DNA of 38,912 bases from Candidatus Hydrogenedentota bacterium (GTDB taxonomy: Bacteria; Hydrogenedentota; Hydrogenedentia; Hydrogenedentales; JAEUWI01): the NCBI GenBank assembly GCA_019637335.1, contig JAHBVV010000043.1, positions 1-38,912 of the forward strand. The letters run 5' to 3'. Under the pieces are notes generated by a model. That model was not told where the DNA came from and searched no databases. It saw only the letters and a program-made list of their open reading frames with translations. Every line of letters begins with the position of its first letter. Positions within the stretch are counted from its first letter, which is position 1. The position numbers and the translations under genes are program-made. Shown here in pieces: positions 3,477 through 37,344 of the stretch.

Positions 3477-6400
3477 TCAGCGCTTGAGCCAAACGCGAAG
3501 CAAGGACAGGAGATGATCCACGTTGACGGGCTTGGCGATGTAGTCCGAAGCGCCGGCTTCCAGACATTTTTCGCGGTCCCCTTTCATGGCCTTGGCCGTC
3601 AGCGCGAGGATGGGCAGGCTGGCGTAGCGGGCGTCGGTTCGAATCTCCCGCATGGTTTCGAAGCCATCCATTTCCGGCATCATGATGTCGAGCAAGACCA
3701 CCTCGACGTGCGGTGTGCGGTGGAGCAGATCCATGGCCTGCCGCCCATCGGTTGCGGTGAGCACCTCCATGCCCTGGTTCTCGAGGACGCTGAGGAGCGC
3801 AAAGATGTTTCGCACGTCATCGTCGACGACCAGGGCGGTGCGCCCGCGCAGTGTTCTACGGGAGTCCTGCAGGCTTATCACGAGATCGCGCTTGGCCCGG
3901 GGCAGCTCGTTTACGTTTCGGTGCAGAAACAACGCGGTTTCATCGAAGAGCCGTTCCGGCGATCGCACATCCTTGAGCACGATGCTCTTGGCGACGGCGC
4001 GCAGCGCGGTTTCCTCCGACGCGGCCAGTTCTTTGCCCGTGAACACAATAATGGGCAGGTTGGCGTGTTCTTCGCGCTTCTGGATCCAATCGAGTAGTTC
4101 GAGACCACTCATATCGGGGAGGCGGAGGTCGAGAACGCAGCATTCGAACGCCCGGCTGGCGAGGAGCCGCATCGCATCCGCGCCGCTGGGGGCCACGGCA
4201 ATTTCGAGGTCGTCGTGGGCGAGCAATTCAACGATGCTCCGGCCCTCGATATGGTCATCCTCGACGACGAGAAGCCGCTTCGGCCACTGGGATACGAAGT
4301 CCTTCATGCGCTCCAGGGACGCCGAGATTTCCTGGGCCGTAGCGGGTTTTTGGAGGAAGGAAAATGCCCCATGCGCGATGCCGTCGTGGCGCCGGTCGTC
4401 GTCACCGGAAATGAGCAGAATGGGTATGTGCCGGGTGGACAGGTCGTTTTTCAACTGGTTCAGGAGCGTCCAGCCGAGCGTATCCGGCAGGAATATGTCC
4501 ATGGCGATAGCGGATGGCTGGTACTGCTGGACCAGGCGCAACCCCTGATCGCCGTTTGTCGCAATGAGTACTTTGAAGCCGGTTTCACGGGCGATCGCGT
4601 AAAGGAATTCAGCGTAATGCCGGTCGTCCTCTATCACCAGCACCGAAAGATCGCCCGTCCCGACCTCATCGCGATCGTCGGGGATTGGTTCGTCCGACTG
4701 CTTCTCCAACAATCGCGAGGCGGGCAGGGGCGCAACCTCCGCGACGGGTGGCGGGAGGATGTCCGATTCGGCGCCACGCAACTGGAGCGGCAGGAATAAT
4801 GTAAAGGTGCTGCCTTGCTCCGGGCTGCTCGCCACCGTGATCTCGCCGCCCAGCAGAACCGACTGTTCGCGGCATATCGCCAGCCCCAGCCCGGTCCCGC
4901 CATACTTTCGGCTTGTTCCGGCGTCCGCCTGCTGGAATGCCTCGAAGATGAGCTTCTGCTTTTCCGGGGGGATTCCAATCCCGGTGTCGGAAACGGTAAA
5001 GGCTACTACGCTGGCGGCCGCGTTGAGCGATTGATTGATGCTGTTCCAGCCTTCGTTTGCGATCCCGATCCGGAGGCACACCTCCCCCGTGGAGGTGAAC
5101 TTGAAGGCGTTGGACAGGAGGTTTTTGAGAATCTGCTGGACCCGCTTGGGGTCGGTAATCATTGTGGGCGGCAGTTCGGATTCAAGTTCAACGAGGAATT
5201 CGATATTCTTGGATTCGGCGACGTGGCGGAAGTCCCGTTCGGCGCCTTCCCGGATCACCGCAAAGGGCAGTTCCTCCAGTTCAATAGTCACGGTTCCCGA
5301 TTCGATCTTGGAGAGGTCGAGAATTTCGTTGATGAGGGAAAGGAGCTCCGAACCGGCGGAATACATGTTGCGGGCAAACTCGATCTGCTTGCTGTTGAGG
5401 TTGCCTTCGGAGTTTTCGGCAAGTTGCTGCCCGAGAATCAGTATCGAATTCAACGGTGTCCGTAATTCGTGGGACATATTGGCTAGGAATTCGGATTTGT
5501 ACTTTGACGTGAGCGCCAGCTCGGCCGCTTTCTCCTCCAGCGCGCGCCGGGCGAGCTCGACTTCCTCGTTTTTGCGTTCGACTTCGACGTTCTGGTCCGC
5601 CAGCAGGCGCGCTTTTTCTTCGAGCTCTTCGTTTGTCTGTTGCAACTCGCGTTTTTGCGCCTGGAGCTCCGAGGTCAGCTGCTGCGACTGCTGGAGCAGG
5701 TTTTCCGTCTGCATCGTGGCTTCGATGGTGTTAAATACCACACCGATGCTGAGAGTGAGCTGGTCGAGGAAGGTCAGGTGCGTCGCGGTAAACGACCCCA
5801 GTGACGCAAGCTCGATGACGGCCTTGGTTTCCCCTTCAAAGAGGGTCGGTATCACCACCACGCTTTCCGGGTACGCGCTGCCCAAACCGGAATGGATTTT
5901 GGTGTATTCCGAGGGTACATCGGTGAGTATGATGCGCTTCTTCTCAATCGCGCACTGGCCCGCGAGGCCCTTTCCCAGGCGAATTTGTTCGGGCTGGTCC
6001 TCAGGTTGCGCGTAGCCGGCAAGCAACCGCAGAAAGGGATCCGGGCCATCCACCATCTGGTAGATGACGCCCTGCTGCGCGTTGACAAGCGGCACCAGTT
6101 CCGACAGCAGCATCTGGCCCACGGTAAAAAGATCCCGCTGGCCCTGCAGCATCCCCGCAAACTTGGCCAGATTGGTCTTGAGCCAGTCCTGTTCCAGATT
6201 GCGCTCCGTGGTTACGCGGAGATTGTGGATCATGGTGTTGACGTTGTCTTTGAGCGTGGCCACTTCGCCGCTGGCCTCCACCTGAATGGATCGGGTGAGA
6301 TCGCCCTGGGTAACCGCCGTCGCCACTTCCGCGATTGCGCGCACCTGCGTGCTGAGATTGGCCGCCAGCAGGTTCACGTTGCCGGTGAGATCCTTCCAGG

Positions 6401-8972
6401 TGCCCGAGGCCCCGGGGACGTTGGCCTGGCCACCCAACCGCCCGTCCACGCCCACCTCGCGGGCAACGTTGGTTACCTGCTGGGCGAAGGTGGCCAGGGT
6501 GTCGGTCATATTGTTGATGGTTTCTGCCAGCGCCGCGATTTCGCCCTTGGCCTCCACCGTGAGTTTCTGTTCGAGGTTGCCCTCGGCCACGGCGGTCACC
6601 ACTTTTACAATACCGCGCACTTGATCCGTCAAATTGGTGGCCATGGAATTGACGTTGTCGGTGAGGTCCTTCCACGTGCCCGCCACGCCCGGCACCGTGG
6701 CCTGCCCGCCGAGCTTCCCGTCCGTGCCCACCTCGCGCGCGACGCGCGTGACTTCGGCCGCGAAGGCGTTGAGCTGGTCCACCATGGTGTTGATTGTGTT
6801 CTTGAGTTCGAGAATTTCGCCCTTGGCGTCGGCCACGATCTTGCGCGAGAGATCGCCCCGCGCCACCGCCGTCGTCACCTCGGCAATATTGCGCACCTGC
6901 GATGTGAGATTGGACGCCATCGAGTTGACGTTGTCGGTGAGATCCTTCCACGTGCCCGCCACGCCCGGCACTGTCGCCTGGCCCCCGAGCTTGCCATCCG
7001 TGCCCACTTCACGCGCAACGCGGGTCACTTCCGAGGCGAATCCGCGAAGCTGTTCCACCATGGTGTTAATGGTTTCCTTCAGCTGCAAGAGCTCCCCGCT
7101 CACATCCACCGTGATGGTCCGGGAGAGATCGCCCCGGGCCACGGCCGTCGTCACCTCCGCGATGTTGCGCACCTGGGCCGTGAGGTTGGAGGCCATGGAG
7201 TTCACGTTGTCCGTGAGGTCTTTCCAAGTTCCCGCCACCCCGGGCACATCGGCCTGGCCCCCGAGCTTGCCGTCCGTGCCCACTTCGCGCGCGACACGGC
7301 TCACCTCGGAGGCGAACGCATTCAACTGATCGACCATCGTGTTGATGGTCTCTTTCAGCTCAAGGATTTCCCCCTTGGCGTCCGCGGTAATTGTCCGGGA
7401 GAGGTCGCCGCGCGCCACGGCGGTCGTGACCTCGGCGATATTGCGCACCTGGGAGGTGAGATTCGACGCCATGGAGTTCACATTATCCGTAAGATCCTTC
7501 CACGTGCCCGCCACGCCCTGGACCTCGGCCTGCCCGCCGAGTTTTCCGTCGGTCCCCACCTCGCGCGCCACCCGGCTCACCTCGGAGGCAAAAGCGTTCA
7601 ACTGGTCGACCATCGTATTGATCGTATCTTTCAGTTCGAGGATCTCGCCCTTGGCGTCCGCGGTGATCTTGCGGGACAGGTCGCCGCGCGCCACGGCCGT
7701 CGTTACCTCGGCAATATTGCGCACCTGGGCGGTGAGGTTGGAGGCCATGGAATTCACGTTATCCGTGAGATCCTTCCACGTGCCCGCCACGCCCGGCACA
7801 TCGGCCTGTCCCCCAAGACGGCCTTCCGTGCCCACCTCGCGCGCCACGCGGCTTACCTCGAAGGCGAATGCGCGAAGCTGCTCCACCATCGTGTTGATGG
7901 TGTCCTTGAGCTCCAGCAGTTCGCCGCGAACATCCACCGTGATCTTGCGGGAGAGGTCGCCGCGCGCCACGGCGATGGTGACCTCCGTGATGTTGCGCAC
8001 CTGGGTCGTGAGGTTGGCCGCCATGAGGTTTACATTGTCGGTCAGGTCTTTCCAGGTTCCGGCCGCGCCCGGAACCACCGCCTGGCCGCCCAGGTTGCCG
8101 TCCGTTCCGACTTCGCGCGCGACGCGGGTGACCTCCGAGGCGAACGAGCGGAGCTGGTCCACCATGCCGTTCATCGCCTCCTTCTGCTGGAGGATTTCCC
8201 CGCGCACGTCGACCGTGATCTTCTTCGACAGATCGCCATTGGCGACCGCGATGGTGACTTCGGCGATGTTGCGCACCTGGGCAGTGAGGTTGGAGGCCAT
8301 CGAGTTAACGCTTTCCGTCAACTCCTTCCAAACGCCGCTCACCCCTTCAACCTGCGCCTGGCCGCCGAGGCGCCCGTCCGTGCCCACTTCCCGCGCCACC
8401 CGCGTCACCTCCGACGTGAACACGGCCAGCTGGTTCATCATGGTGCTCACCAATCTTGCGGATCGCAGAAACTCGCCCTCCAGCGGGCGACCGTCCACTT
8501 CCAGCGACATCGTCTGGCTCAGGTCCCCGCGGGCGACGGCTCCAACGGCGCGGGTGATCTCCATCGTGGGCCAGACCAGATCATCGATGAGCGCGTTGAT
8601 GTCGTCCACGCCATCCGCCCAGCTGCCGACCGCGCCCGGGACGCTAATCCGCTGGGACAAGCGGCCCTGTTTGCCCACCGCGTGGCTGATTCGCGAAAAC
8701 TCGCTTCCGCGCCGTTCCACCACCATCATGACGTCGTTCAGGGCATCCGCGATCTTCCCGTAGGTTCCTGTCCACTCATTGGGAAGCCGCCGCGTAAAGT
8801 CGCCGGACCGCAGCGCGAGGACAACGTCCAGAATCTGATCGATCGGATCCTTGGCTTCCGGGGCGGGCCCGTTATCCGCGGCGTCGCGCCCCTTGCCGTC
8901 GGCGCCGTGCTCACGTCGCCTGGACGGTCTCAACGGCTTCGTGGAACGATTCGCGGTGGATTTGATGTCCAT
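3477..8972 (-). CDS. Multi-HAMP hybrid histidine kinase with GAF and three receivers
   Basis: A very large (1831 aa) cytosolic hybrid kinase without signal peptide or membrane segment. Residues about 40-915 are a tandem HAMP array, including eight 92-aa units each carrying an AREVG-x-DG-x-LGGQA core. Then come a GAF domain (about 925-1085), a coiled coil, HisKA with H1168 ([11 protein letters not shown]), HATPase (N box around [11 protein letters not shown]1 DTGIGIP, G2 GTGLGLAI) and three receivers with D1492, D1615 and D1762. There is no Hpt domain. The architecture is like bacterial relatives of the fungal Nik1/Os-1 group III kinases, which sense osmotic or envelope stress through poly-HAMP arrays. 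It lies 61 bp downstream of the sigma-54 activator gene and 13 bp upstream of the REC-kinase-REC gene. Start ATG has AGGAAGGGA upstream. Partner and signal are inferred, not shown. Confidence 0.93.
6241..8448 (-). repeat. Eight 276-bp in-frame tandem repeats (poly-HAMP array)
   Basis: The same codon landmark in the AREVG core recurs at 8380, 8104, 7828, 7552, 7276, 7000, 6724 and 6448, exactly 276 bp each time with no indel. The central units are the most alike in DNA and protein, and the outer ones more diverged. That is the pattern expected of unequal exchange or recent homogenisation. Unit limits are arbitrary within the register. A ninth, degenerate unit precedes the first. Confidence 0.92.
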
Positions 8973-34790: not shown

Positions 34791-34835
34791 CAGTCTATCA
34801 GTAGAGCTTATACCACATTGACCAGCCCGGTGCAA
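34791..34835 (-). promoter_or_regulatory. Sigma-70 promoter and possible operator of the regulator gene
   Basis: On the minus strand, TTGCAC (34835-34830), a 17-bp spacer and TATAAG (34812-34807) give a good promoter with a start near 34800. The imperfect palindrome CTCTACTGATAGACTG (34806-34791) covers the predicted start and could be an autoregulatory operator. The -35 lies inside the left 10-bp target duplication of the MITE. Confidence 0.6.
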
Positions 34836-34838
34836 CGT

Positions 34839-35066
34839 CAGGGAAATCGCATTTAAACTCGATCTCGGTATATGGGCGTAAACTTGAGTCGATTTGGAAC
34901 CTTCAATCAACGATAGTGAGCGTTTTGGAGCGCCGGCATCTGTGCCGGCACGGTCAGGGATTCGCCGCAGGCGAAATGCCAGCGCTCCAACACGCGCCCT
35001 TTTTAACATTGAAGGTGGTTCATGTGGCGCTCGGCTCAAGTTGGAAGTTTAAATGCGATTGCCCTG
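34839..35066. mobile_element. MITE-like element with 21-bp inverted repeats and 10-bp target duplication
   Basis: Terminal arms 34839-34859 and 35046-35066 are inverted repeats, 20 of 21 identical, beginning CAGGG and ending in TTTAAACT. Exact direct copies of GGTGCAACGT flank the element (34829-34838 and 35067-35076), the mark of transposition. Further nested inverted pairs follow inward: AACTTGAG/CTCAAGTT, CCTTCAAT/ATTGAAGG and GGAGCGC/GCGCTCC. The loop carries two small perfect hairpins (GCCGGCA-TCTG-TGCCGGC and TTCGCC-GCA-GGCGAA). At 228 bp it has no transposase, so it would move in trans. CAGGG ends and 8-10 bp duplications are, as I recall, features of the ISAs1 family; that link is inference. 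Confidence 0.85.
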
Positions 35067-35140
35067 GGTGCAACGTTTTCGGAGAACCGGTTGCGCATGC
35101 GGAGGGACGCGGTCGCAACGGCGGAAAAGGGTTTTTTCGC

Positions 35141-35821: not shown

Positions 35822-35903
35822 TAAGCCCGCTGACCGATCGGACGCGCTTACTGCGGAACTTTTCGGCGCGACAAACTGGATCGGTCTGGACGCCTGACCA
35901 AAA

Positions 35904-35928
35904 GTAGGATAGGCGTCCCGCCTGTCCA
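35904..35928 (+). repeat. Dispersed repeat, copy 2
   Basis: Begins GTAGGATAGGCGTCCCG and matches 14261-14285 at 23 of 25 positions. It runs into the perfect palindrome CTGTCCATGGACAG (35922-35935). It lies in the gap between the cupin and aminotransferase genes. Confidence 0.6.
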
Positions 35929-35970
35929 TGGACAGCCGAGACACCTGTCCGACCATAAGGAGACTGCGAT

Positions 35971-37344
35971 ATGCTAGCCACCCAGACTTCCCTCGAATGG
36001 GCCAACGCCCGTTGTGCGGATCTTCCCAACATCAGCGTGCCCCCGCCGGGCCCGGTGTCGAAGGACTACCACGCGCGCTGCTGCAAATACTTCAAGGGCC
36101 TCAGCGGCCAGGTGAAGCTCTTCCCCGTGGCCTTTGAGTCCGGCGAGGGCTGCATGCTCACCGACGTGGACGGCAACGAGTACATCGACTTCTCGTCGGG
36201 CATCTACGTCACCACGCTGGGCCACTGCCACCCGAAGATCAGCGAGGCCATCGCCAAGTACGCGGGGCAGCTGATGAACGCCCACGACTTCACCACGCCG
36301 ATCAAGACCATGCTCGTGGAGAAGCTCGCGGAAATCCTGCCGGGCGACCTCAACGGCTTCCAGTTCTACGATTCCGGCACGACGGCGGTGGAGGCGGGCA
36401 TCCGCGTGCTCCGCGCGGGCACAAAAAAGAACGAGACCATCTCCTGCTTCTACGACTACCACGGCAAGACCTACGGCGCGGTGTCGCTGGGCCACATCCG
36501 CTCGTCGGTCTATGGCGCGGTGCGTGCGCCCGGCGCCCACATGGTCCCGCGCCCCGATGTCTACCGTCCGATGTGGACCAAACCGGACGGAACGATCGAC
36601 ACGGACGCCTACATCAACTTTTACCGCGAATACCTCGACAAGGCCACCGTGGGCGACGTGGCGGGCTTCGTGCTCGAACCCATCCAGGGCTGGGGCGGCA
36701 CCATCATGCCGCCGGATGACTTCTTCCCCAAGTTGCGGAAACTGTGCGACGAGCTTGGCATCCTGCTCATGGCCGACGAAGTGCTAACGAGCTGGGGTCG
36801 CACCGGCAAGTGGCTGTGCATGGAGCACTACGACACCCTGCCCGACGTCGTAACCATCGGCAAAGGCTTCGGCAACGGATTCCCCGTGACCTGCGTGGCG
36901 GTGCGCGAGCCGTACAAGGAGGCTTTCGAGGCCATCTCGGCATCCAGCAGCTACGGCGGCAACCCGATGGCCTGCGCGGCGGCCCTGGCGTCGACCGAGG
37001 TCATCGAAGAAGAAAACCTGCTCGAACACGCGCAGCATCTCGGCGATGTGGCGAACAAGCGCATGGCGAAAATGAAGGAAGAGCACAAAATCATCGGCGA
37101 CGTCCGCGCCAAGGGCTGCCTCATGGGCATCGAGCTCGTGAAGGACCGAACGACCAAGGAGCCCTTCAACAAGGCGGGTGAGCTGGTCTACCAGAAGGCC
37201 TTCGCGAAGGGCCTGGCGTGGATCCCGGCGGGGCACATCCTCCGCATGAGCCCGCCGATCGTCATGAACGAAGAGACGCTGCTCAAGGGCCTCGACATCA
37301 TCGACGAGGCCATCGGCGAGACCCAGAAGGAACTGATGGGATGA
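35971..37344 (+). CDS. Class III pyridoxal-phosphate aminotransferase
   Basis: A 457-aa fold-type I aminotransferase. The PLP Schiff-base lysine is K298 in VVTIGKGFGNGFP. Other family marks are DFSSGIYVTTLGHCHPKI, the FYDSGTTAVEAGIRVLRA substrate/PLP region, VLEPIQGWGG and the LMADEVLTSWGRTGKW metal/PLP-ring aspartate motif. Relatives use 4-aminobutyrate, ornithine, glutamate-semialdehyde or amino-sugar substrates, and the substrate cannot be read here. AAGGAG lies 8 nt before the ATG. Its stop overlaps the dehydrogenase start (ATGA), so both are translated together. It could interconvert a keto-sugar and an amino-sugar or amino-polyol with the dehydrogenase; this is inferred from context. 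Confidence 0.95.
   Translation: MLATQTSLEWANARCADLPNISVPPPGPVSKDYHARCCKYFKGLSGQVKLFPVAFESGEGCMLTDVDGNEYIDFSSGIYVTTLGHCHPKISEAIAKYAGQLMNAHDFTTPIKTMLVEKLAEILPGDLNGFQFYDSGTTAVEAGIRVLRAGTKKNETISCFYDYHGKTYGAVSLGHIRSSVYGAVRAPGAHMVPRPDVYRPMWTKPDGTIDTDAYINFYREYLDKATVGDVAGFVLEPIQGWGGTIMPPDDFFPKLRKLCDELGILLMADEVLTSWGRTGKWLCMEHYDTLPDVVTIGKGFGNGFPVTCVAVREPYKEAFEAISASSSYGGNPMACAAALASTEVIEEENLLEHAQHLGDVANKRMAKMKEEHKIIGDVRAKGCLMGIELVKDRTTKEPFNKAGELVYQKAFAKGLAWIPAGHILRMSPPIVMNEETLLKGLDIIDEAIGETQKELMG

Follow-up and report, generated by a model that had tools for sequence, protein, structure and literature searches.

A nearly palindromic sequence of 228 bp lies between a gene for a GntR/LacI-type regulator (minus strand) and a cupin gene (plus strand) in the window, i.e. 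the whole stretch of 38,912 nucleotides of Candidatus Hydrogenedentota DNA that was analysed, raising the question of whether it is a mobile element and which enzyme could have moved it. The original prediction, made from this stretch only, was a new MITE-like element that encodes no transposase and is mobilised by an ISAs1-like transposase, the last point being suggested by its CAGGG ends and the length of the duplication. Analysis of the source genome and its relatives indicates, with a probability of about 0.92, that the element is a MITE with the 21-bp ends of an ISAs1-family (DDE) transposase, lacking a transposase of its own and mobilised in trans by a helper since lost or only transiently present. 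It is a new MITE family of a kind already well known, whose ends can be cleanly assigned to the ISAs1 type. The prediction is thereby borne out in its observations and, judging from the present evidence, in its interpretation.

Structure of the element

The element occupies positions 34839-35066 of the window. The 21-bp terminal inverted repeats (TIRs), the perfect 10-bp direct repeat outside them, the nested inverted pairs and the two small hairpins that had been predicted are all found in their expected places, as follows (strand given where one is assigned):

34829-34838: left target-site duplication (TSD) GGTGCAACGT, 10 bp; exact copy at 35067-35076, with 10-bp repeats also at other copies
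34839-35066: the MITE itself, 228 bp, a nearly palindromic, non-autonomous transposable element; 89-97% identical to full-length copies at other places in the genome
34839-34859, plus strand: left TIR CAGGGAAATCGCATTTAAACT, 21 bp; 20/21 against the right TIR
34881-34892: left arm of the inner inverted pair; partner 35031-35042, 11/12 complementary
34899-34939: left arm of the central long stem; partner 34976-35016, 41 nt, 76%
34932-34949: small perfect hairpin 1, 7-bp stem GCCGGCA/TGCCGGC; found in the 228- and 206-bp forms
34961-34975: small perfect hairpin 2, 6-bp stem TTCGCC/GGCGAA; missing from the 206-bp form
34976-35016: right arm of the central long stem; partner 34899-34939, 41 nt, 76%
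35031-35042: right arm of the inner inverted pair; partner 34881-34892
35046-35066, minus strand: right TIR CAGGGCAATCGCATTTAAACT (minus-strand reading), 21 bp; identical to one end of an Aquimarina ISAs1-family insertion sequence (IS)
35067-35076: right TSD GGTGCAACGT, 10 bp; 10/10 match to the left copy

At position 6 of the left TIR, the family consensus reads C. The element strand has a folding energy of -65.6 kcal/mol, compared with -37.6 +/- 3.8 for dinucleotide shuffles (z -7.3), and in the minimum-energy fold hairpin 1 is partly displaced by pairing with the long arm. As anticipated, no transposase-sized ORF is present within the 228-bp element, and the 206-bp form is likewise devoid of a transposase ORF.

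Other features of the window were also recorded. A hairpin-forming intergenic sequence (TAGGATAGGCGTCCCGCCTGTCCATGGACAG..., 35901-35953; RNA fold z -3.9) lies just upstream of an aminotransferase gene; it recurs in several places in the congener G002 (83-87%) and as an inverted pair in the source genome (G000:C1:23662-23717), and is possibly another dispersed palindrome. The genome has a second copy of the start of the class-III aminotransferase gene, window 35931-36600 being 92% identical to G000:C1:22977-23647. A very long hybrid sensor kinase (3477-8972, minus strand, 1831 aa) contains many HAMP repeats, GAF and HisKA domains and three response-regulator domains.

Copies and size forms in the source genome

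The source genome assembly (7.16 Mb, 55 contigs, 96% complete) contains at least 40 strong, near-full-length matches to the whole element, with 89-97% identity in the scored set. The 21-bp end matches 172 places with up to three mismatches, against none for a reversed control pattern, and the family is estimated at a minimum of about 80 copies, with ends that are near-identical among copies. Most of the 66 copies that could be delimited at both ends, which formed the set for flank analysis, are 228-230 bp long; a second form of 206 bp differs from the 228-bp form by the 22 bp that hold hairpin 2. Since the 206-bp copies bear their own TSDs, hairpin 2 is dispensable for transposition; thus, of the predicted layered hairpin, the elaborate fold was confirmed, while the case for a special role was weakened. 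Enlarged copies of 397-1010 bp carry insertions, and two copies of 543 bp have a common insert and differing TSDs (GGCATTGTAGC and GGTTGATTGC), indicating that the enlarged element transposed as a unit. The inner palindrome TTGGAGCGCNGGCAT was considered as a separate repeat family inserted in the MITE, an idea that was mostly rejected, since almost every occurrence examined beyond the listed elements is within a decayed MITE copy.

Target-site duplication and distribution of the insertions

When the two flanks of each of the 66 copies were compared, mean identity was 0.78 at 10 bp and 0.28-0.39 at the other lengths tested, from 6 to 13. In 48 of them the flanks agree at 8 or more of the 10 bases, against 0.015% of mismatched (shuffled) left/right pairs. 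This sharp 10-bp repeat is direct evidence that the element transposed in the past, with a stagger of 10 bp. Chance is ruled out, since copies recur across the genome and most sites have a 10-bp repeat of their own.

Almost all classified copies (62/65) are intergenic: 36 between tandem genes, 25 between divergent genes and a single one between convergent genes, where 15 (by length) or 12 (by count) would be expected. The shortage has a binomial p of 1.5e-6 or 6e-5, respectively, values to be read with crude gene calls (a rough codon-usage caller) and a small intergenic background of about 27 kb of the same genome. It is therefore a lead, for which a target preference of the transposase or selection could be responsible. 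A tentative and rather doubtful extension is that the MITE enters promoter-bearing intergenic DNA by preference, or is kept there by selection, and so would provide hairpin cis elements genome-wide, affecting dozens of genes; Correia elements in Neisseria reportedly have cis effects on gene expression.

The strong hairpin and this distribution are also what could be expected of a dispersed regulatory or structural repeat kept by selection, such as a REP/BIME-like sequence, a terminator or a DNA-binding palindrome, with no transposon involved. However, the 10-bp duplication is found at most sites and confirmed at the exact element ends, nested insertions have moved as units, as in the 543-bp form, and ends identical to those of an ISAs1 IS require transposition; moreover, a terminator role is hard to reconcile with the scarcity of copies between convergent genes, and an Rfam search with the element returned nothing at threshold. 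Such an origin is therefore extremely improbable, and the copies are best regarded as those of a transposon.

Presence and absence in relatives

When the genomes of relatives were searched with the element and its ends, as the prediction had proposed, no full copy was found in any of three available congeners, nor among about 190 other relatives. Weak matches of 25-49 bp in other genomes of the order are without the ends and correspond to chance or generic hairpins; no relative was found among the plasmids, phages and viral contigs searched.

Sites without the element, which the prediction had suggested looking for, do exist in the congener G001. Its DNA orthologous to the window locus (G001:C17) is without the element, although the target cannot be made out because the intergenic DNA has diverged too far. 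For the copy in L088, both flanking genes align with an orthologous locus devoid of it (G001:C75), and the gap between the aligned blocks measures 214 bp in the source sequence, after removal of the element, and 221 bp in G001; this was the one locus at which joined flanks aligned on both sides, the others aligning on one side only. Presence/absence polymorphism at orthologous sites is thus observed, while the exact single-copy target is unreadable, congeners being too diverged outside genes. Neither outcome that had been named as fatal to the prediction, a single-copy sequence in all relatives or a locus never found empty, occurred. The element is short (the usual limit being about 600 bp), has TIRs and a fixed-length TSD, lacks coding capacity, is dispersed in high copy number and is absent from congeners; its status as a MITE was thereby upheld.

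Relation to ISAs1 insertion sequences

The ISAs1 family is defined by inverted repeats of 14-22 bp starting with CAGGG and by 10-bp direct repeats (2025 paper, PMC11946415), both of which are found in the MITE. The exact 21-bp end pattern was searched in 84,980 species genomes, one per species, and occurs in three places, against a chance expectation of about 0.5 matches, obtained by simple arithmetic from pattern length and collection size. One is in Aquimarina sp. RZ0 (L103:3916-5144), where a 1229-bp IS has one end identical to the MITE end (21/21) and the other matching at 19/21, with a flanking repeat of 9/10 bp; its broken frames match the NF033564 ISAs1 transposase and PF13808. Single MITE-type ends in Desulfobacterales and Saprospiraceae (L104, L105) gave no partner end in the search.

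Closer relatives carry similar elements. In G005, a genome of the same family, a 1327-bp ISAs1 IS (L144) has CAGGGCAATCGCATTAAAACT at both ends, 20/21 against the MITE end. The ends of same-order ISAs1 ISs are one to three bases off over 18; L141 and L143 have exact 10-bp TSDs, and L142 and L145 have the ends CAGGGCAATCGCATCTAA. An ISAs1 copy in the congener G002 (L117) has one end further off, at 4 of 18. Plasmid ISAs1 ISs, relatives of ISAeme1, ISPa60 and ISAzs5, also have CAGGG-type ends, one being CAAGG, and exact 10-bp TSDs; for the plasmid records L120 and L121 and for L122 the end search found no convincing pair. An IS of about 1.2 kb with the same end, of the kind the prediction had suggested looking for, exists in Aquimarina, and one of 1327 bp with ends one base different in the same family; none was detected in the source genome.

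The 228-bp element is not itself an ISAs1 IS: it is non-coding, whereas these ISs span 1.2-1.6 kb with a transposase gene, and its interior has no demonstrable sequence in common with theirs. As only the ends could be matched, descent by internal deletion of an ISAs1 IS lacks support.

Mobilisation by another DDE family, e.g. by the IS4-type transposases carried by the source genome, has also to be weighed. PF01609 matches are present at six places in this genome, and one MITE copy (C28:81109-83174, 2066 bp) holds an IS4-type gene; however, this IS4-like IS is bounded by different ends, CATAAGCGCTAACTTGTTT, and flanked by an 11-bp duplication of its own, GGGCGTTGCCC, and is therefore a nested insertion, placed within a second element with ends GGCTCATCCGGTTTGA, so that it was rejected as the autonomous partner. 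Neither CATAAGCGCTAACTTGTTT nor GGCTCATCCGGTTTGA resembles CAGGGCAATCGCATTTAAACT, which ISAs1 ends match at 19-21 of 21, and a mobiliser from another family is accordingly very unlikely.

The ends GGCTCATCCGGTTTGA belong to a second repeated family (L059:2633-4504; L066:2687-3185; L029, L084, L091, L092, L096), which has short forms of about 0.5 kb and long forms of about 1.85-1.9 kb. DDE_Tnp_1 matches lie inside the long forms of L091, L092 and L096. In the L059 element the transposase part is delimited by separate ends and an 11-bp duplication, so the long form may be composed of a short element and an IS, the two having spread jointly.

Helper transposase and proposed history

No NF033564 or PF13808 match was found in the source genome, while an ISAs1 transposase is present in the congener G002 and in G005. 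Because the helper IS was not detected there, we infer the mobilisation by an ISAs1 transposase predicted for this element from the matching ends and the duplication length. That no such transposase was detected restricts what can be claimed about present mobility but not about origin.

Two genomes of the same order, G048 and G031, have many ISAs1-type ends (CAGGGCAATCGCATTAAAAGT, CAGGGCAATCGCATCTAAAGT) about 105-126 bp from contig starts, which suggests many nearly identical ISAs1 copies breaking those assemblies; these are possible helper donors.

In a modified form of the main reading, the source organism might still carry an ISAs1 helper, hidden in assembly gaps or in an unassembled replicon, and the family would then still be mobile. 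The assembly is 96% complete and in 55 contigs, and repeated ISs commonly break assemblies, as the contig-end matches in G048 and G031 suggest; however, about 90 of the 110 contig ends of the source genome were read and none stops in an ISAs1-type end, the only such end near a contig start being that of a decayed MITE copy. A hidden helper is thus unlikely, and with neither an ISAs1 gene nor an ISAs1-type end at contig breaks detected, the family looks orphaned.

In the preferred reading, that of a MITE mobilised by an ISAs1 helper since lost or transient, the transposase supplied in trans would have bound the 21-bp ends and cut the target with a 10-bp stagger to insert the element. Repeated rounds in the source lineage would have produced at least about 80 copies, most of them in intergenic DNA that carries promoters. 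With the helper IS later lost, or present only for a time, the copies have probably ceased to move and begun to decay.

Comparison with known systems

With ISAs1 ISs (relatives of ISPa60, ISAeme1 and ISAzs5, and those of the same order) the MITE has in common the CAGGG start of the TIRs and the 10-bp duplication, and with the closest of them the CAATCGCAT core of the ends. In a survey of the open-access literature, with most subscription literature and ISfinder outside its scope, no paper linking a MITE family to ISAs1 was found. The family represents a large ISAs1-linked MITE expansion, restricted to one species among the sampled congeners and apparently orphaned by its helper. Its skew away from convergent regions makes it possible to test, for an ISAs1 transposase, whether targets are chosen or the distribution is shaped by selection.

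Other bacterial MITEs, such as Correia, Chunjie of Geobacter, QMITE2 of Coxiella and MITEAba12, are likewise short and intergenic, with TIRs, a TSD and a stem-loop, and are present in tens to over a hundred copies with size variants. Chunjie is 235 bp long, with 37 further copies having conserved TIRs and DRs (PMC10969869). The present family differs from them in its ISAs1-type ends, its 10-bp TSDs and its G+C-rich genome; moreover, the reported locations of QMITE2 are mainly 3' untranslated regions, whereas here a strong shortage is seen between convergent genes. MITEPye1 of Paracoccus yeei is similarly non-autonomous, with TIRs matching a known IS family and a long stem-loop; conversely, it is tied to IS1182 and present in 1-3 chromosomal copies (PMC11578231).
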